From contig NZ_CP139304.1 in assembly GCF_034092415.1 (NCBI RefSeq), positions 1,410,001 through 1,474,000 of the forward strand: DNA of 64,000 nucleotides, written 5' to 3'. The translations under genes and the position numbers were made by a program. Shown piece after piece: positions 40,889 to 53,614 of the stretch (positions are counted from its first letter, which is position 1; the number at the start of each line of letters is the position of its first letter). This DNA is from Prochlorococcus sp. MIT 1341. Lineage in GTDB: Bacteria > Cyanobacteriota > Cyanobacteriia > PCC-6307 > Cyanobiaceae. Under the pieces are notes generated by a model. That model saw nothing but the letters and a program-made list of their open reading frames with translations. It did no database searches and was not told the origin of the DNA.

Positions 40889-40947
40889 AGCATTTTCTTT
40901 TATTTTCTTCCCGGTAAGCCTGCAGTTGATAAGGTGGGCAGACCTCT

Positions 40948-41036
40948 GGAGAGGTGGCTGAGTGGTTGAAAGCGGCTCCCTGCTAAGGAGTTACAGGAGG
41001 CAACTCCTGTCGAGGGTTCGAATCCCTCCCTCTCCG
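40948..41036 (+). tRNA. tRNA-Ser(GCT)
   Basis: An 89-base class II tRNA. Acceptor GGAGAGG pairs perfectly with CCTCTCC. The anticodon loop CTGCTAA has anticodon GCT. A long variable arm (TACAGGAGGCAACTCCTGT region) forms a stem, and the T loop is GGTTCGAAT. Discriminator G; CCA not encoded. It borders the accessory stretch 41.1-44.4 kb; I saw no copy of its 3' end downstream that would mark an attachment-site pair. Confidence 0.97.
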
Positions 41037-41131
41037 TTCAAACAAATCCTTTATTTGTGGCTATTCAATAAAATTGAAGGTATCAACTCCTGATGTTTAA
41101 GTCACTCACTGGAATTAGCTGTTAACGAAGA

Positions 41132-41466: not shown

Positions 41467-41478
41467 GGTGCTTGAATA
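41467..41478 (+). promoter_or_regulatory. Shared element GGTGCTTGAATA, copy 1
   Basis: Identical 12-base sequence found upstream of all three consecutive family genes. Here it is 26 bases before the GTG of the repeat-protein gene, within the longer match GGGTGCTTGAATAC shared with copy 2. TGC-TTGAAT could be an extended -10 promoter, or the element could act in a short 5' leader. Confidence 0.55.
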
Positions 41479-41504: not shown

Positions 41505-42782
41505 GTGGCGGAAATGACAGCAGCAGATCGCAAGGCTTTAGAAGCTAAGAAGTCATCAGAACGCAAAGCAGCGGAAGCCAAAAAGGCAGCTGAACGTAAA
41601 GCAGCTGAGGACCGTAAGGCAGCACAACGCAAAGCAGCCGAAGCCAAGAAGGTTGCAGAACGCAAAGCAGCTGAGGACCGTAAGGCAGCACAACGCAAAG
41701 CAGCTGAGGACCGTAAGGCAGCACAACGCAAAGCAGCTGAGGACCGTAAGGCAGCACAACGCAAAGCAGCCGAAGCCAAGAAGGTTGCAGAACGCAAAGC
41801 AGCTGAGGACCGTAAGGCTGTAGAAGCCAAAAAGGCAGCAGATCGTAAGGTTTTAGAAGCCAAGAAGGCAGCTGAGCGCAAAGCAGCTGAGGACCGTAAG
41901 GCTGTAGAAGCCAAAAAGGCAGCAGATCGCAAAGCAGCTGAGGACCGTAAGGCAGCAGATCGCAAAGCAGCTGAGGACCGTAAGGCAGCAGATCGCAAAG
42001 CAGCTGAGGACCGTAAGGCAGCAGATCGCAAAGCGGCTGAGGACCGTAAGGCTGTAGAAGCCAAAAAGGCAGCAGATCGTAAGGCTTTAGAAGCCAAGAA
42101 GGCAGCTGAGCGCAAAGCAGCTGAGGACCGTAAGGCAGCAGATCGCAAAGCGGCTGAGGACCGTAAGGCTGTAGAAGCCAAAAAGGCAGCAGATCGTAAG
42201 GCTTTAGAAGCTAAGAAGTCATCAGAACGCAAAGCAGCGGAAGCCAAAAAGGCAGCTGAACGTAAAGCAGCTGAGGACCGTAAGGCAGCACAACGCAAAG
42301 CAGCCGAAGCCAAGAAGGTTGCAGAACGCAAAGCAGCTGAGGACCGTAAGGCAGCACAACGCAAAGCAGCTGAGGACCGTAAGGCAGCAGATCGCAAAGC
42401 GGCTGAGGACCGTAAGGCTGTAGAAGCCAAGAAGGCAGCAGAACGCAAAGCAGCCGAAGCCAAGAAGGCAGCTGAGCGCAAAGCAGCTGAGGACCGTAAG
42501 GCTGTAGAAGCCAAGAAGGCAGCAGAACGCAAAGCAGCCGAAGCCAAGAAGGCAGCCGCTCAGAAGCAGAAGACTTCTGATGCCTTAAAGAAATCAGGAC
42601 GGTCCAATCAGCCTTCTAAAGCAAAGGAAAATAGGACGGTTTCTGAGAAGAAACGAGAAGGAAGGAATGAATTCTTGAGTGTTTCGGTCTATCTAAATAC
42701 AGGCAAAATCGCTGGTATTGTTTCAATCGGGGTTGTTGCTTCAGCTGTACTGATTACTGCGCTGACTTTCATTGCACGTTAA
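41505..42782 (+). CDS. Membrane-anchored Ala/Lys/Glu/Arg hendecad-repeat protein
   Basis: 425 residues, unknown function. Residues 1-9 (VAEMTAADR) precede a repeat array, about 10-353, built from six-residue (KAAEDR, KAAEAK) and five-residue (KAAQR, KAAER, KAADR) blocks, mostly alternating as 11-residue units. Then come a basic Ser/Lys linker and a C-terminal module, GRNEFLSVSVYLNT followed by one membrane helix ending FIAR. The array should be one long charged alpha helix or coiled coil. The module matches the other two family genes downstream. GTG 41505 was chosen because it mirrors the GTG starts of those genes; TTG 41472 and ATG 41514 are alternatives. Confidence 0.8.
   Translation: MAEMTAADRKALEAKKSSERKAAEAKKAAERKAAEDRKAAQRKAAEAKKVAERKAAEDRKAAQRKAAEDRKAAQRKAAEDRKAAQRKAAEAKKVAERKAAEDRKAVEAKKAADRKVLEAKKAAERKAAEDRKAVEAKKAADRKAAEDRKAADRKAAEDRKAADRKAAEDRKAADRKAAEDRKAVEAKKAADRKALEAKKAAERKAAEDRKAADRKAAEDRKAVEAKKAADRKALEAKKSSERKAAEAKKAAERKAAEDRKAAQRKAAEAKKVAERKAAEDRKAAQRKAAEDRKAADRKAAEDRKAVEAKKAAERKAAEAKKAAERKAAEDRKAVEAKKAAERKAAEAKKAAAQKQKTSDALKKSGRSNQPSKAKENRTVSEKKREGRNEFLSVSVYLNTGKIAGIVSIGVVASAVLITALTFIAR
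41532..42563 (+). repeat. In-frame 33-bp (18+15) coding repeat array
   Basis: About 1.03 kb of near-identical 18-bp and 15-bp blocks that encode KAAEDR/KAAEAK-type and KAAQR/KAAER-type units. They mostly alternate as 33-bp units, with several 51-bp (18+18+15) units. A 204-bp segment (41520-41723) recurs at 42186-42389 with a single mismatch (41531 C versus 42197 T), including the only two copies of the KSSER block. The high identity implies recent unequal recombination or slippage. Confidence 0.9.
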
Positions 42783-42856
42783 TGCAACTCTTGTGGGCGT
42801 TCTTTCTTGGACGTTTAAAGAAGAAGTTTTTTAATTCCAGCACTAAGTTCGCCCTG

Positions 42857-42868
42857 GGTGCTTGAATA
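42857..42868 (+). promoter_or_regulatory. Shared element GGTGCTTGAATA, copy 2
   Basis: Same 12-base element, 24 bases before the GTG of the second family gene. With flanks it shares GGGTGCTTGAATAC with copy 1. A good ribosome site (AGGAG) lies between it and the start. Confidence 0.55.
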
Positions 42869-42892
42869 CGCTCCTATTTCCAGGAGAAAATA

Positions 42893-43501
42893 GTGGTACG
42901 CGTTAGAGAGAGGGTTAAAGAAATTCTCGATTTTGCTAGAGCTGAGTCTCCATATCGATCTGCAAATAAAGGATGGATTACTGATGATGTCTTCTTGGAG
43001 TGGGGTTCACCTTCTAAAGCAGAATTAAAACAAGGAGATGAGGTTTTAGACATATCGGTTTATTGGAACCCGATAAACCAAATTATTTTGATTCTTTTTT
43101 CGGTGATTTTGTTAGCCACAATTTTGGTTTTTTTGGCAGTTTCTTTTACTCATGGAAGGCTTGACTTCTCTTCATGGTCAAAAGGGGAAATAGCTTTAAA
43201 TGACGTAGCCCAGGTTGAGGTTATTTCCTTAAAAGAGAAAGAACAAACTCCTGATTTCTCGCCACAAGACACACTCAATGAGGCTTCCTTACTGGCCAAT
43301 GCCGGTTCTATCGAAATCAAGGCCTCGGCTCCTGTTGAGATTGTTAACGCTGATTTAAAACCACTTCAAGAGGAGAGCTTGACTGTTTTAAAACCCACAG
43401 GGATTTCAGTTGCAAAACCTACCATGAAAACTCCTGCGAGAGATTTGTCGCAGGTAACGAGAGTTACAGCTGTGGACCTTTTTCAGACTAAAAAGCGATA
43501 G
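42893..43501 (+). CDS. Family gene 2: single-pass membrane protein with ISVYWN motif
   Basis: 202 residues, unknown function. Residues 1-46 form a charged, soluble N-terminal part. QGDEVLDISVYWN (47-59) directly precedes one membrane helix (about 62-84, LILFSVILLATILVFLAV). Residues 88-202 are an acidic to neutral soluble tail with Pro/Lys-rich VLKPTGISVAKPTMKTPAR. The QG-D/N-E-x3-ISVY-x-N motif before the helix is shared with the neighbours on each side. GTG 42893 has an AGGAG at a 6-base spacing. A TTTCTA/TAGAAA stem follows the stop. Confidence 0.75.
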   Translation: MVRVRERVKEILDFARAESPYRSANKGWITDDVFLEWGSPSKAELKQGDEVLDISVYWNPINQIILILFSVILLATILVFLAVSFTHGRLDFSSWSKGEIALNDVAQVEVISLKEKEQTPDFSPQDTLNEASLLANAGSIEIKASAPVEIVNADLKPLQEESLTVLKPTGISVAKPTMKTPARDLSQVTRVTAVDLFQTKKR

Positions 43502-43616
43502 GAATTTCTAGACATAGAAATGTTTCCTTTTCCAATCATGGGTTTTGTCAGGGATTGCCGAATTTTTTGTAGGAATTGTTTTACGAATACTCAATTTGTA
43601 CCTTCTGCCAAGGTGT

Positions 43617-43628
43617 GGTGCTTGAATA
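43617..43628 (+). promoter_or_regulatory. Shared element GGTGCTTGAATA, copy 3
   Basis: Third identical copy, 24 bases before the GTG of the 44-residue family gene. Sequence on both sides differs from copies 1 and 2, so the 12 bases are specifically conserved rather than part of a long duplication. Confidence 0.55.
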
Positions 43629-43652
43629 GTGGTGATTATTTAGGGTGATCAA

Positions 43653-43787
43653 GTGGCAGAAAAACAAGGCAATGAGTTGGCGACCATATCCGTTTATCTG
43701 AATACGCCAATAGCGGCGGTGCTTTTGGGGGTAGGGTTCATCGTTGGCTCAGTTTTGTTTGCTGGCGTAATGCTGATTGCTAGGTAA
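43653..43787 (+). CDS. Family gene 3: 44-residue ISVYLNT membrane protein
   Basis: 44 residues: VAEKQGNELATISVYLNT followed by one membrane helix and the end MLIAR. Its start (VAE) and its end (SVYLNT-helix-IAR) align with the first and last parts of the 425-residue repeat protein, which looks like this small protein with a long repeat inserted. GTG start; the ribosome site is weak. A weak intrinsic terminator follows at 43790. No known family was recognised. Confidence 0.7.
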   Translation: MAEKQGNELATISVYLNTPIAAVLLGVGFIVGSVLFAGVMLIAR

Positions 43788-44436: not shown

Positions 44437-45327
44437 CTATTGGTCCTTAATTAGTTCGCTTGCGATTTCAGGAAGTAGAGATGTGTCTTTTGAACGCTCC
44501 CTGCCCACGCTGAATATCACCAATAGCGTTGGATCGCCTCCGGGTATTGAGAACCAAGCAGCATCATGCCTTGCAGTACTCATTAAGCCTGCTTTACTCC
44601 AAAGTTGAGACCCTTGAGGTAATCCCGCCCCGATAAATCCATCAATTTGATTATTTAGGTCATCTTGTCTTTGGAGGGGATCAATCGATCTTGATAGAAG
44701 TTCTCTTGTCCTTTTACAGGCATTGGGTGATAGAAATCCATTGGTCATAATGGCTTCTAGGAAGCGAGCTGTTCCAGATGTTGTGAGAGTATTTCGGTTG
44801 CTGTTGTTTTCTTGATAGAAATCACTATCCCGGCCATATGGACTATCTTCCCAAGTTTTTTGGCAACAATTACTTTCTTTTAGCTCTGGCCAACCAAGAC
44901 TAGACACCCATTGGTTAATAAGTTGACGTTGAAGTCTCCAGTTATTCCATCCCTCTCCAGCAAGTGATGGGCCACTTGTGGTTCCTGTAAGTAGATCAAC
45001 GATGAATCCTGTTGCATCATTGCTTGAATTTTTGATCATTGAAGCAAGAGCTCTTCTCATTTCAATGCTTTCTGGGATTAGGTCTTTTTGAATCCATGCT
45101 TCAGTAGCGACGGCATAAATCATTTTCACGACACTTGCTGGATAGAGAGGTTTTTTGCTAGCCCAGGAAGCGCCATAACCACTATTTGGTGCAGGGGTAG
45201 TGGATTTATACCTAACCCAAGTAATGGAGATGGTTTCATGGAGGCCAGGCCTCCCTCTGTTTTCAAGTCGGTCTAAAAGGTTGCCCAGTTGGGCATGCAT
45301 TGTCTCGTCGGGAAAGTAGAACGCCAT
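44437..45327 (-). CDS. Class A beta-lactamase-fold protein
   Basis: 296 residues from ATG 45327. Serine hydrolase motifs: PASVVKMIY gives the SxxK (Ser65-Lys68), NSSNDAT matches SxN, and LWSKAGLMS replaces KTG with KAG. All three are in order and spacing like class A beta-lactamases and related penicillin-interacting enzymes. No signal peptide is visible, and the Glu166 loop is not obvious, so a peptidoglycan-related or regulatory role is as likely as resistance. An upstream ATG (45354) would overlap the divergent NlpC/P60 gene. Confidence 0.8.
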   Translation of the reverse strand: MAFYFPDETMHAQLGNLLDRLENRGRPGLHETISITWVRYKSTTPAPNSGYGASWASKKPLYPASVVKMIYAVATEAWIQKDLIPESIEMRRALASMIKNSSNDATGFIVDLLTGTTSGPSLAGEGWNNWRLQRQLINQWVSSLGWPELKESNCCQKTWEDSPYGRDSDFYQENNSNRNTLTTSGTARFLEAIMTNGFLSPNACKRTRELLSRSIDPLQRQDDLNNQIDGFIGAGLPQGSQLWSKAGLMSTARHDAAWFSIPGGDPTLLVIFSVGRERSKDTSLLPEIASELIKDQ

Positions 45328-45344
45328 AGCGCTCGCTAAAGATA

Positions 45345-46097
45345 ATGTCGACACTACTCAAGCAATCTTCAAAAGACTTGTTCCCCTTAGGGAGTTATTG
45401 GGAATTAAAAAAAAGTGTTAACGGTTTTTCAAGTGTGTATGGGGATGTTCTGGCCACCCAGGCTTTAGAAGGTAGGAGTTTTGAGGTTTTGGAATACAGG
45501 GAAAATTTTAATAATCAGTTTTTATGTGATTACCTGAAAGTTCGTTTATTAGAAGATGGCTACATTTGTTGGTTTAGAATTACAGACCTTTTGGGACAAG
45601 TTTCTCAAAGCGTAAAGTTTGAACCAACTTTGCTTTCTTTTAAGCAAATACGTTCAAGAAATTTTCTTATTCTTGATTGGATTCAAGAATGTTCCAATCA
45701 ACCAAATAAATATTTGTGGGGTGGAACAACTGGTCCTGACTTTGATTGTTCAGGCCTTGTTCAGGCTTCATTTTCCAGTCAAGGTATTTGGGTCCCACGC
45801 GATGCTTATCAGCAGGAAGAATTCTCTATTTCATTGGAAGCTTCTCTGTATAACTTAGATTTGCTATGCCCTGGAGACCTTGTGTTTTTTGGAACTTCTT
45901 TAAGGTGTAATCATGTTGGTATCTACAAAGGAAATGGCTTCTATTGGCATAGTTCTGGTGTGGAGCATGGACACAATGGGATTGCATTAGACAGTTTGAC
46001 TTCTGTGGAAGCTGATAGTGTTGCCAGCTACTATCGTGAACATTTTCGTGGTGCAGGAAGAGTTGAGTGTTGTCACGATGGCACCACTCTTCCGTAA
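45345..46097 (+). CDS. NlpC/P60 peptidoglycan endopeptidase
   Basis: 250 residues: N-terminal SH3-like region (about 15-85), then an NlpC/P60 catalytic domain with Cys135 in DFDCSGLVQ, His190 in CNHVGIY and a third polar residue near His202. Predicted gamma-D-glutamyl-diamino acid endopeptidase acting on peptidoglycan stem peptides. No signal peptide is visible. It is divergent from the beta-lactamase-fold gene (17-base gap) and upstream of the glycosyltransferase gene, a small envelope group. Confidence 0.88.
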   Translation: MSTLLKQSSKDLFPLGSYWELKKSVNGFSSVYGDVLATQALEGRSFEVLEYRENFNNQFLCDYLKVRLLEDGYICWFRITDLLGQVSQSVKFEPTLLSFKQIRSRNFLILDWIQECSNQPNKYLWGGTTGPDFDCSGLVQASFSSQGIWVPRDAYQQEEFSISLEASLYNLDLLCPGDLVFFGTSLRCNHVGIYKGNGFYWHSSGVEHGHNGIALDSLTSVEADSVASYYREHFRGAGRVECCHDGTTLP

Positions 46098-47820: not shown

Positions 47821-48420
47821 ATGACTGAATTCCAAGATCCGTTTCTTCGCTCCAATGCTCCTGTCAGGTTCCCCGAGAAATATCTCGACCAGTCAGCTCG
47901 ACCAACTGATATTGGGATAGCTGAGCAGTGGGCAGTTAATCCAGCCAAAGACCCTTGTGTTGGAGATTTGGCTACTCCTGTAAACAGTGGCTATTTCACG
48001 AAGGCATGGCTGAATAACCTTCCTTTTTATCGTGAAGGCTTGTCCCCTAATTTCCGTGGCCTAGAAGTAGGCGCGATGTTTGGGTATTTCCTTTTTGGTC
48101 CATTCGCTATTACGGGCCCATTCCGTAATACTGATTTTGCTTTGACAGCAGGTCTTTTGAGTGCAGTTGGTGCAATGCATATTCTTACTGCCCTTCTTGT
48201 GCTTTATAACGCTCCTGGAAAGGCTCCAAATGTTCAGCCACCTGATTGCACAATTGTAAATCCTCCTGCTGATTTATTTACCAGGCAGGGATGGGCAGAT
48301 TTTACTAGCGGTTTTTGGCTAGGTGGATGCGGTGGAGCAGTTTTTGCATGGCTTTTATGCGGAACTCTTCATGTTGATACCTTGATGCAACAAGGTGCAT
48401 TTTTCCCTTGGGTAGGTTGA
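47821..48420 (+). CDS. psaL: Photosystem I subunit XI (PsaL)
   Basis: PsaL holds photosystem I trimers together. 199 residues: N-terminal stromal part ([14 protein letters not shown]), [20 protein letters not shown]-like helix start at about 72-90, and three membrane helices including [17 protein letters not shown]. Followed by a very strong terminator. The psaI-psaL pair is the conserved cyanobacterial arrangement. Confidence 0.97.
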
Positions 48421-49087: not shown

Positions 49088-51316
49088 TTATCCAAATTTG
49101 CCTGCAGTGGAACCTATGACGAATGCCGCATAGGTGACCGCGGTGCCAACTACAAAGTGAGTTACACCAACAAGGCGGGCTTGAACGATCGATAGAGCAA
49201 CAGGCTTGTCTCTCCACCCAACAAGATTGGCAATTGGAGTGCGCTGATGTGCCCATACCAGAGTTTCAATCAGCTCTTGCCAGTAACCACGCCAGGAGAT
49301 GAGGAACATAAATCCTACTGCCCAGACAAGGTGGCCCCAAAGGAACATAAATGCCCATGGACTTAGCGAGTTAACGCCAAAGGGGTTGTAGCCATTAATT
49401 AGCTGAGAGCTATTTAGCCACAAGTAATCCCTAAACCATCCCATCAGATAGGTTCCAGATTCATTGAACTGCGCAATGTTGCCCTGCCAGATAGCTAGAT
49501 GCTTCCAATGCCAGTAGAACTGCACCCATGCAATTGTGTTAACAGCCCAGAACAGTGCCATATAGGTGGCGTCCCAAGCAGAAACATCACAGGTACCACC
49601 TCTTCCAGGTCCATCACAAGGGAAGGAATATCCAAAGTCCTTTTTGTCTGGGATCAATTTGGATCCTCTGGCATCAAGTGCACCTTTGATCAAGATCAAA
49701 GCAGTGGTATGAATCCCAAGAGCAATGCCATGGTGAACTAAGAAGTCTGCTGGTCCTATAGGAAGGAAGTTGGTCGATGCATCAGGTGCATTGATCATGT
49801 CCATCCAGTAGTGATTTCCTGGCATATTGGCGGCAGCAAGACTGGCTGCACTGTTTGCGTTGGAAAGCAAAGCATCGAAGCCATAGATTGTCTTGCCAGA
49901 AACACCCATTAGGAATTGAGCAAAGATTGGCTCAATTAGTATTTGTTTTTCTGGAGTTCCAAAAGCCACACAAACGTCATTATGGACGTATAGACCAAGT
50001 GTATGGAAGCCAAGAAGCATACATACCCAGCTTAGGTGGCTAATAAGAGCTTCTTTTGTGCCTAGAACTCTTGCCAGAACATTGTCCTTGTTGAGCTCAG
50101 GGTCATAGTCTCTTATGAAGAAGATTGCTCCATGAGAGAACGCACCACACATAAGCAAGATGGCTATGTATTGGTGATGGGTATACAAGGCTGCTTGAGT
50201 CGTGTAGTCCTGCGCTATGTATGCATAGGAAGGCAGGGCACCCATATGATGAGCAACCAAACTGCAAGCCACACCTAGGCAAGCTAAAGCTAGGCCAAGT
50301 TGGAAGTGCAGAGAGTTATTAACGGTCTCATAGATACCGTCATGGTTAATGCCGAAATGACCTTTATGAGGATCATTTGGGTGGTCTGTTTTGTGACCTT
50401 CGGTGATCTCTTTTAGTGTGTGACCAATGCCAAATGTATTTCTATACATATGTCCGCCAATGATCATCACTACCCCTAAGGCGAGATGATGATGAGCAAT
50501 GTCAGTTAGCCAAAGAGAACCGCTATCTGGATGTAATCCACCCATGAAGGTATAGATAGCTGTACCTGCACCTTGAGAGGTTCCAAAAACGTGATCCAAA
50601 GAATCTGGATTTTGGGCATATGCACCCCAGTTACCTGTGAAGAACGGCATTAAACCGGCCGGATGAGGTAAAACTGTGAGCCAATTGTCCCAGCCAACAT
50701 GTTGGCCACGAGATTCAGGGATAGCTACGTGTATAAGGTGGGCATTCCAGGCGATGTTTGTAAAGCCAAACAAGACTGCAATGTGATGGTTCAACATTGC
50801 TTCAGCGTTTTTGAACCAGGCCAATGAAGGACGGAACTTTGGCTGAAGATGTAACCAGCCTCCAAAAAGGAGCCAGCAAACCATGATATTTATGAAAATC
50901 GCACCCTGGTAAAGCTCAGTATTGGTCCTCATTCCAATGGTGTACCACCAATGGTAAAGACCTGAATAAGCAATATTTACGGGTCCACTAGCACCTGCTT
51001 GGGTCAAAGCATCTGTAATGCCTTGTCCAAAGTGAGGGTCCCAGATACCGTGCGCGATTGGGCGAACATGAGTTGGGTCGGCGACCCAAGCCTCGAAGTT
51101 GCCCTGCCAGGCGATGTGGAACAGGTTGCCTGCAACCCAAAGGCCGATTATCGCCAGATGGCCGAAGTGTGTTGAGAAGATCTTTTGGTAAAGAGCTTCT
51201 TCAGTCATTCCGTCATGGCTCTCGAAGTCGTGAGCCGTGGCGATGCCGTACCAAATACGACGGGTTGTAGGGTCCTGTGCCAGACCCTGGTTAAACGAGG
51301 GAAATTTCGTTGCCAT
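49088..51316 (-). CDS. psaB: Photosystem I P700 apoprotein A2 (PsaB)
   Basis: Core subunit binding half of P700, the electron-transfer chain and antenna chlorophylls. 742 residues, eleven membrane helices. [24 protein letters not shown] start; [16 protein letters not shown] carries the F-X cluster cysteines (DGPGRGGTC); conserved His ligands are abundant. Follows psaA by 21 bases on the same strand, forming the psaAB operon. Confidence 0.98.
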
Positions 51317-51337
51317 TTAGGGAAAGGTCAGGAAAGG

Positions 51338-53614
51338 TCAGCCGAGCCCAAGAAGGCGGGCGTGGAAGAAGGCCCAGGTGGTAACAATACCGCCTAGGAG
51401 GAAGTGGGTTACACCCACGGCACGGCCTTGGGTGATTGATAGAGCCCTGGGCTGGATGGCGGGAGCCAACTTCAGCTTGTTATGAGCCCAAAGAATTGAC
51501 TCAAAGAGCTCCTGCCAATAACCGCGACCGGTGAACAGGAACATCAAGCTGAATGCCCAAATAAAGTGTGCTCCAAGGAATAGAAGGCTATAGCCACTTA
51601 TGGCATTGCCGTAGCCAGTGAGAACCTGAGAGGACTGAGCCCATAGGAAATCACGTAACCATCCATTGATGGTTATACCGCTTTGAGCAAAGTTTCCACC
51701 TGTAAGACCCCATACATCGCTTTGCATCTTCCATGAGAAGTAGAAGATAATTACTGAGATGGAGTTGTACATCCAGAACAAGCCAAGGAATACATGGTCC
51801 CAAGAAGAAACTTGGCATGTACCACCACGGCCTGGTCCATCGCAAGAGAAACGGAATCCAAGCTGAGCCTTGTCAGGAATCAAACGAGAGCTTCTTGCGT
51901 AAAGAACACCTTTAAGAAGGATTAGGAGAGTTACGTGGATGGTGAAAGCGTGGACATGATGAATCATCAGATCCGCAGTCCCAAGAGGCATTGAGAACGC
52001 CTCACTAACTCCACCAGGTAAGTTTCCTGCTCCAACCATAGAAGCTGTTCCAATTGAGTTCTGCCACAACTGCTGAGTCCACTGAGCGAAGACAGGTTGG
52101 ATTTGAATAGCTGTATCGCTAAACATGTCACCAGGACGTCCAAGAGCGCGCATTACATCGTTATGGATGTAAAGACCAAAGCTATGGAAGCCGATGAACA
52201 TACAGACCCAATTAAGTTGACTGATTATGGCGTCACGAGCCTTGAGAATCCTGTCAAGGACATTGTCTACGTGAATTGCAGGGTCATAATCCCTAATCAT
52301 TGCAATGCCACCATGAGCAGCGGCTCCACAGATCATTAGGCCACCAATCCACATATGGTGAGTGAATAGTCCTAATACTGTTGCGTGATCTAGGGAAATG
52401 TATGGATACGCGGGAAGAGCATACTGATGATGCGCAACCACAATGGATCCAGAACCAACCATGGCAAGGTTGATGCTTAGCTGTCCATGCCAGCTATTGC
52501 TCAAAAACTCAAAGATGCCTTCGTGACCTTTTGGTGCTGGGAAAAGGATTGGATCGCCTTTTGCGTTATCCAAAATTGTCTTCATGTTGTGACCAACACC
52601 ATGAACGGAGTTGCCCCACATGTGACCACCAAATACAGCAAATACACCCCAGGCCAAATGATGGTGGGATATATCAGTCATCCAAAGGCTTCCTGTTACA
52701 GGATTTAAGCCACCTTTGTTGGTGAGAATATCACTGAAAGCCCACCAGTTAAGAGTGAAAAAGTTTTCCACTGTTCTGCCGGCAAGGCTTGGGAAAATTT
52801 GACTTGCTACTGATGGGCTGCAAAGCGTAGTAGTAGGAATGTCTGCTGCACTAGCAATGGTTACTCCATCAATAACAAGAGGCTTGCCTGCATCAATTGC
52901 ATCAAGCATTGCAGCTACTGGGGCACCTATATGTATTAGGTGTCCAGCCCAGGCAATTGAGCCAAGACCAAACAAAATAATTTGATGGTGCTGCATCATT
53001 GGCTGAACCTTCTGGAACCAAGCCAGTTTTGGTGCAGCCTTGTGATAGTGGTAGATACCTCCGTGAAGTACTAGAGCTGCCATCACCAGAGCTCCAATAG
53101 CTAAAGCCAAGAGCTGTGTCTCGTTGGTGATGCCCCAGGACCTCCACATTTGGAAAATACCTGATGTGATCTGCATGCCGCTATATCCGGCACCTAGATC
53201 AGCATTCATAATTTCTTGGCCGACAATTGGCCAGACCACTTGTGCACCTGGTTTTACGTGCGTTGGATCTGCCAGCCAACCGGTGTAGTTAGAGAAGCGG
53301 GCGCCATGGAAAAAGGCACCACTCATCCAAACAAAAACTACCGCTAGATGTCCGAAGTGGGCCGAAAAAATCTTTCGGCTTGTTTCCTCTAGATCACCTA
53401 TGTGGGTGTCAAAGTCGTGTGCGTCTGCGTGGAGGTTCCAAATCCAGGTAGTGGTTTTGGGACCTTTAGCGAGGCTTCGTGACCAAAAGCCAGGTTGTCC
53501 GGCTTTTTCTATATCGGCAGGGACATGATCCCTGTCAACTGGTTGGTCATAAGGAGTAGGAACTCCTCCTGAAGGCTTCACTTTTCCCCCACGTTCTGGT
53601 GGGCTAATAGTCAT
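51338..53614 (-). CDS. psaA: Photosystem I P700 apoprotein A1 (PsaA)
   Basis: Partner of PsaB in the photosystem I core. 758 residues from ATG 53614, [33 protein letters not shown] holds the F-X cysteines. The upstream in-frame ATG at 53656 would add 14 residues not found in the family. A proline-rich stretch at about 15-35 and an insert around 260-280 ([19 protein letters not shown]) resemble picocyanobacterial PsaA. First gene of the psaAB transcript. Confidence 0.97.

Follow-up and report, generated by a model that had tools for sequence, protein, structure and literature searches.

A shared membrane-anchor module and upstream box in three adjacent Prochlorococcus genes that probably form a genus-specific family

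Three consecutive plus-strand genes of Prochlorococcus sp. MIT 1341 were found within the window, the stretch of 64,000 nucleotides analysed here, and are best read as paralogues within a family of small tail-anchored membrane proteins that is restricted to Prochlorococcus. Each gene starts with GTG, and the order and lengths were those reported in the earlier note. The rod gene (41505..42782, 425 aa) was defined by its open reading frame, its composition and repeat period and a profile match of its tail. The medium gene (42893..43501, 202 aa) was defined by its alignment with other mediums, an AF2 model and strong matches in 30 of 271 genomes, and the small gene (43653..43787, 44 aa) by its open reading frame, profile and single-sequence matches, an AF2 model and purifying selection. 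The anatomy of the family was well supported, and the function proposed below was drawn from co-occurrence.

At the level of sequence, the anchors of the rod, medium and small proteins were confirmed as homologous, with a similarity far above chance. In all three proteins, a membrane helix began with ISVYxN or a close variant. In the window, this module formed the last 33 residues of the rod and small proteins; that of the rod, VSVYLNTGKIAG...TFIAR (42681..42779, plus strand, 33 residues), was placed by its profile match and its distance to the stop codon, at which it ends. The rod tail read VSVYLN...FIAR and the small protein ended in LIAR, in agreement with the earlier claim that the helix closes two of the three proteins at IAR. 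Across the clades, the 33-residue distance to the stop was kept in all complete rods, most small proteins and the short LLIV mediums, and a few small proteins had three or four residues more. A profile of 54 small proteins, with no rods or mediums in it, matched 57 of 57 rods, with a median E of 9e-7 and 55 of them at E<1e-3. The 88-aa LLIV mediums were matched at about 1e-12, and the best unrelated segment among 16,245 translated segments from all loci reached E 0.33. Moreover, the 44-aa protein as the sole query returned the rod tail of the window (E 6.7e-4) as well as other rods, with E values as low as 2e-5. The typical medium module was too diverged for the small-only profile; the medium of the window was tied by its conserved N-terminal domain to the LLIV mediums, in which the module is plain and ends at +33.

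The recovery of all 57 rods bore out the proposal of a shared membrane anchor on otherwise differing proteins. The possibilities that no other genome has the motif beside a helix, or that the similarity is no better than that of random hydrophobic segments, disagreed with the occurrence of the module in many genomes and with the E values of unrelated segments (0.33 or more). The motif given at that time, QG-[DN]-E-x3-ISVY-[LW]-N, agreed with the quoted sequences except in the rod, which reads GRNEFLSVSVYLN and does not fit the QG-[DN]-E half. Similarly, the idea of a modular anchor attached to different cargo held for the sharing of the anchor but not for arbitrary cargo, as there were three defined paralogue groups (small, rod and medium), each conserved across clades. 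No known family had been recognised, and no Pfam, NCBIfam, PHROGs or PDB relative was obtained: the anchor and the medium N-domain gave no significant family match in Pfam, NCBIfam or PHROGs, apart from sporadic single-member matches, and the best PDB sequence in an hmmsearch of the family alignment had E 8.3. In addition, no description of the family was found in the literature searched, which mostly did not extend to subscription journals. Therefore, the trio family was rated as a new kind of lineage-specific system, with a proposed function only.

The rod of the window consisted of K/R-A-E/D repeats with an 11-aa period, and most relatives had a period of 6 aa. Alanine made up 30–50% of the rods, Lys/Arg about a third and Asp/Glu a sixth, giving a net charge of +13 to +20 per 100 residues and no hydrophobic stripe; the 6-aa charge period spreads the charges round a helix. 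Rod lengths ranged from about 98 to 439 aa, with about threefold variation within one clade, although repeats may be collapsed in the lengths taken from SAG assemblies. In the LLI group, 11 of 13 rod lengths were congruent modulo 6, indicating that whole repeat units were gained or lost. The rods start with MAEKK.., similar to the small proteins, so the rod may have arisen from a copy of the small gene by repeat growth. A C-terminal helix without a signal peptide was seen in the family, and an N-in topology is suggested by the flanking charges; in the rod, KKR/R and TGK lie on the N side of the helix, which is consistent with N-in tail anchoring. A second rod was observed in MIT1307xe (L059; genome G052, contig C1, 834922 to about 837700, minus strand). 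Its open frame extends to at most 908 aa, and it has near-neutral charge, a repeat of 11 aa, N-terminal acidic EEASA repeats and the same anchor module. It was unlinked to the trio and had no box, the element described below, nearby.

The medium protein had a strongly conserved N-domain, VRERVKEILDFARAESPYRSANKGW in the window, with the pattern [RK]ERxxExxDFxxxESPYRxANKGW. This was followed by ISVYWN and the membrane helix (AF2 helix 47-86) and then by a disordered tail ending in TAVDLFQTKKR; the AF2 model was poor (pTM 0.31). The disordered tails carried clade-specific conserved end motifs (TAVDLFQxK, NMLQPK, KSKSNF[IFL] and GLVLRF), which suggests a possible binding partner on that side of the membrane. 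The small protein consisted of MAEKQGNELATISVYLN and a membrane helix ending in LIAR, and was modelled by AF2 as a single helix, 2-43, with a mean pLDDT of 87. The small gene was under purifying selection, with pN/pS of 0.06–0.34 by divergence bin; at 44 aa, such a gene may be overlooked in annotation. A homologue of the small gene (ISVFLN, ending in TKISF) occurred alone in a sugar/glycosyltransferase cluster of AG-363-P08 (L122 / L058), away from rod and medium.

An upstream element that is absent from the earlier note was also shared by the three genes. The 12-mer GGTGCTTGAATA had three copies in the genome (1,937,096 bases, one contig), one before each gene of the trio. The box RTGCTTGAATA was located by exact pattern scans and by leader column identity at 41468..41478 for the rod gene, whose start codon lies 37 nt after the first base of the box, at 42858..42868 for the medium gene and at 43618..43628 for the small gene, all on the plus strand. 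The longest stretch shared by random triples of 60-mers from the window was 8 nt in 20,000 trials. The relaxed form RTGCTTGAAT had five more sites in the genome, in or beside coding DNA and none before a family-like gene. Across the relatives, RTGCTTGAAT(A) preceded 31 rod, 24 medium and 25 small distinct leaders; the first base of the box was 31–37 nt from the start in nearly all leaders, and 74 of the 80 leaders had GTG starts. The box columns of the diverged leader sets were 92–96% identical, compared with 30–45% for the flanks. For the rod, the pairwise identity was 96% over 14 diverged leaders against 31–43% in the flanks, and for the medium, 92% over 23 diverged leaders against 30–38%. 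The LLI small genes carried TGCTTTAAT, with TTTAAT instead of TTGAAT. Thirty other copies of TGCTTGAATA in nine genomes lay in coding DNA or before no plausible gene at such spacing. The box was missing from the small gene where it is separate (LLII/III) and in HL and LLIV, as well as from the 908-aa rod, which indicates that the box goes with the rod-bearing set.

The box would be the core of a dedicated promoter, or another leader element, that co-expresses the set. The promoter reading was adopted because of the position of the box, the lack of RNA structure (leader RNA did not exceed its shuffles in stability, with a mean z of −0.1) and an A that the rod leaders conserve at the place where +1 would fall. 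Read as TGC-TTGAAT, the box misses the sigma-70 extended −10 pattern of TGn followed by TAnnnT, and the scanner found no sigma-70 site there. There is no A at −11 of a normal sigma-70 −10 element, no conserved −35 was seen, and TTGAAT is a poor sigma-70 hexamer. Many rod leaders had an imperfect inverted repeat, GTTGATTTCAAC, about 35–45 nt upstream of the box, and the small-gene leaders had a AATTGTTTT element at a similar place; both are possible operator sites. The box as the start of a short upstream ORF (RTG CTT GAA) was rejected as the principal reading, since the wobble bases are invariant and the LLI small genes have TTTAAT.

Alternatively, the box might work in the mRNA, where UGCUUG would pair with the start region (CAAGUG) and a regulator or temperature would open the GTG start. 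This agreed with the slid-register test, in which 5.15 of 6 pairs formed in register compared with at most 3.6 at other offsets, with the prevalence of GTG starts and with an offset to the start that is constant within about 6 nt. However, the medium genes did not keep the pairs at −2 and −3, the stem requires two G-U pairs, the leaders were as stable as their shuffles, and both segments were nearly invariant, leaving no covariation. Action in the mRNA was considered unlikely and was kept as a rival to the promoter reading.

MIT1341xe, the strain of the window, belongs to the LLVII grade (PMC11559063, Table 3), and the same source assigns MIT1223 (G003) to LLVIII, MIT1300xe (G058) and MIT1307xe (G052) to LLVII and MIT1314 (G272) to HLII (PMC11559063). 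In 271 Cyanobiaceae genomes with a completeness of 90% or more, the module was found in 67 genomes and 13 of 34 genera, all of the Prochlorococcus type. The clade names used for genera g11, g39, g56, g30 and g18 rest partly on presumed strain identities, and genomes G010, G078, G110, G071 and G117 are presumably SS120, MIT9211, NATL2A, MIT9313 and MIT9312, respectively. The rod occurred in 28 genomes, and all 28 also had the medium. Two LLIV genomes had the small gene and an 88-aa medium without a rod, one LLI assembly had the small gene only, and 36 HL genomes had the small gene only, two of them with internal stops. Accordingly, LLIV/AMZ-I-like genomes had a small gene and a short medium, the rod and the box were present from LLVII onwards, and rod, medium and box were lost in HL. 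The two small genes with internal stop codons were those of G285 and G299, in the HL-type genus g18, and the gene may be undergoing decay in some of the HL strains.

A broader survey of the class, covering 291 genomes, gave nothing convincing outside Prochlorococcus; three class-wide matches at E 0.003–0.01 were set aside as expected by chance in 291 genomes. Matches in Synechococcus genera at E 0.01–0.1 were also rejected: the two examined, one of them from such a genus, were cytochrome c oxidase subunit II, and the rest had the same frame length. The named loci came from Prochlorococcus SAGs, MAGs and isolates and from one SAG labelled Synechococcaceae. As far as the sequences surveyed go, the family is confined to Prochlorococcus. 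The labelled exception, AG-439-B13 (L125), carried five Pcb-type antenna genes above the family cut-off in addition to the small gene; because of these five genes it is most likely a mislabelled Prochlorococcus, and it fits the antenna pattern described below.

The trio was flanked by tRNA-Ser (40947-41037) and a beta-lactamase-like gene (44437-45354, minus strand). The order alr, tRNA-Ser, trio, beta-lactamase-like gene and NlpC gene was the same in MIT1223 (LLVIII) and MIT1307xe, and the downstream part was also kept in LLI genomes. The trio was relocated in LLII/III, where the rod-medium pair is surrounded by other genes. Where the pair was relocated (LLII/III and MIT1300xe), rod and medium were still adjacent, and the small gene could be separate. 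The earlier description of an accessory stretch beside tRNA-Ser did not hold, as the locus is syntenic in several clades, and for the same reason the tRNA neighbour was given no weight as a sign of mobility. A viral or mobile origin was rejected, the small protein being encoded by no viral contig or phage, and a search for known RNA elements at the locus gave weak matches on the tRNA itself only. The genes psaL (47821-48420) and psaB/psaA (49088-51991) lie 4–8 kb downstream of the trio in the window, in an order kept in several clades.

A previous study indicated that pcbA appeared in the LLIV/AMZ-I ancestor as phycobilisomes were lost, that pcb genes expanded in LLVII and persisted in later LL clades, and that HL cells retain only pcbA (PMC11559063). 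In our survey, antenna-family matches, which probably include CP43/CP47-type relatives, numbered from 6 to at least 7 in rod-bearing genomes, with one exception of 4, compared with 3 in LLIV, 2–5 in HL and mostly 1–3 in Synechococcus genera. The gain and loss steps of the ISVY family match those of the Pcb antenna genes. The match is suggestive and not proof, because it comprises about two coincident events, one gain and one loss. Other traits, namely planktonic lifestyle and genome reduction, changed on the same branches. Three expanded-antenna assemblies (G031, G324 and G326, 90–96% complete) had no member of the family; contigs often break in this locus.

Tentatively, and short of probable, the trio may encode a co-regulated set of tail-anchored proteins, with cationic helical rods that organise thylakoid membranes rich in antennae. 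The proteins would lie in the thylakoid membrane, their N-terminal part on the cytoplasmic side, and the anchors would co-assemble through conserved helix faces. The lysine/alanine-rich rods, at about 0.15 nm per residue and tens of nm long, might span the cytoplasmic gap to anionic membrane or photosystem surfaces, serving as an electrostatic tether or spacer for the closely packed, antenna-rich thylakoids of low-light cells after phycobilisome loss. In this scheme, the small protein would serve as the basic anchor subunit, and the medium, with a domain in the cytoplasm and a tail in the lumen, would act as an adaptor. A wider version seems unlikely: that this is Prochlorococcus' own membrane-organising system, evolved at the swap from phycobilisome to Pcb, in which tail-anchored cationic rods zip thylakoids and are expressed from a private class of promoter or leader element that serves no other gene of the genome. 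For Prochlorococcus, the most abundant phototroph, a genus-restricted family supplies named genes, in strains that are in culture, through which the organisation of thylakoids after phycobilisome loss can be tested. Furthermore, a cis element that marks just its own genes offers a route to a dedicated regulator, in an organism whose genome has few of them.

The composition of the rod might also point to a nucleoid-membrane tether, in which a histone H1-like cationic rod binds DNA and the tail anchor holds it in the membrane. The rod is Lys/Ala-rich, the frame in the window has a net charge of +58, and weak compositional matches to HC2 (E 0.0023) and to the Burkholderia histone H1-like family (E 3e-10) were obtained. 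However, the scores were under the family cut-offs (18.5 vs 40 bits for HC2 and 40.6 vs 80 bits for NF038053), H1-like proteins have no membrane anchor, about half of the charged residues are offset by E/D in a regular pattern, and HL-only loss is given no reason, which makes the tether quite improbable. Equally improbable is a lineage-specific stress or protective filler, with LEA-like helical repeats on an anchor that drift, are dispensable and were lost in streamlined HL genomes. The 11-aa period of the window rod and the threefold length variation in 6-aa steps within one clade would suit such a filler, but the rod had no LEA_4 match, and the conserved ends, the box, the pairing with the medium and the purifying selection on the small gene argue against it. 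Very doubtful is a periplasmic, TolA-like rod bridging envelope layers: the neighbours alanine racemase (alr), beta-lactamase-like hydrolase and NlpC/P60 are cell-wall genes and the composition resembles TolA domain II, but with a C-terminal anchor and no signal peptide a 390-residue cationic N-terminus must cross the membrane, TolA domain III is lacking, and the rod-medium pair lies among other genes in LLII/III.

Compared with known systems, the trio has partial parallels. The box resembles extended −10 promoters (TGnTATAAT) in having TGC and then TTGAAT at a spacing that would give a 5'UTR of 15–20 nt, but it has T instead of A at −11 and no −35. It differs from housekeeping promoters in being far more strictly conserved and found before only three genes in each genome. 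Histone H1-like bacterial proteins (PF07382 HC2 and NF038053), with their Lys/Ala-rich repeats, were the only families at all similar to the rod, which falls under both curated cut-offs, is membrane-anchored and has regularly placed acidic residues. Rods of the TolA domain II type share the long Ala/Lys/Glu helical repeat of variable length on a single membrane helix. However, TolA has an N-terminal anchor and domain III, whereas the rod anchor is formed by its last 33 residues, with no periplasmic domain III, no Tol-Pal neighbours, no Pfam TolA match and a strongly positive net charge. Like the C-terminal sorting tails (LPXTG and PEP-CTERM), the anchor combines a short motif, a membrane helix and one basic C-terminal residue and is common to unrelated cargo. 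Unlike them, the family has no signal peptide, its motif stands at the start of a continuous helix, and in the 44-aa member there is no cargo for sorting. The proteins started with MAEK.. or MVRVRERV.., with no hydrophobic N-terminus, and in the rod and small sequences inspected no LPXTG or PEP motif preceded the helix.
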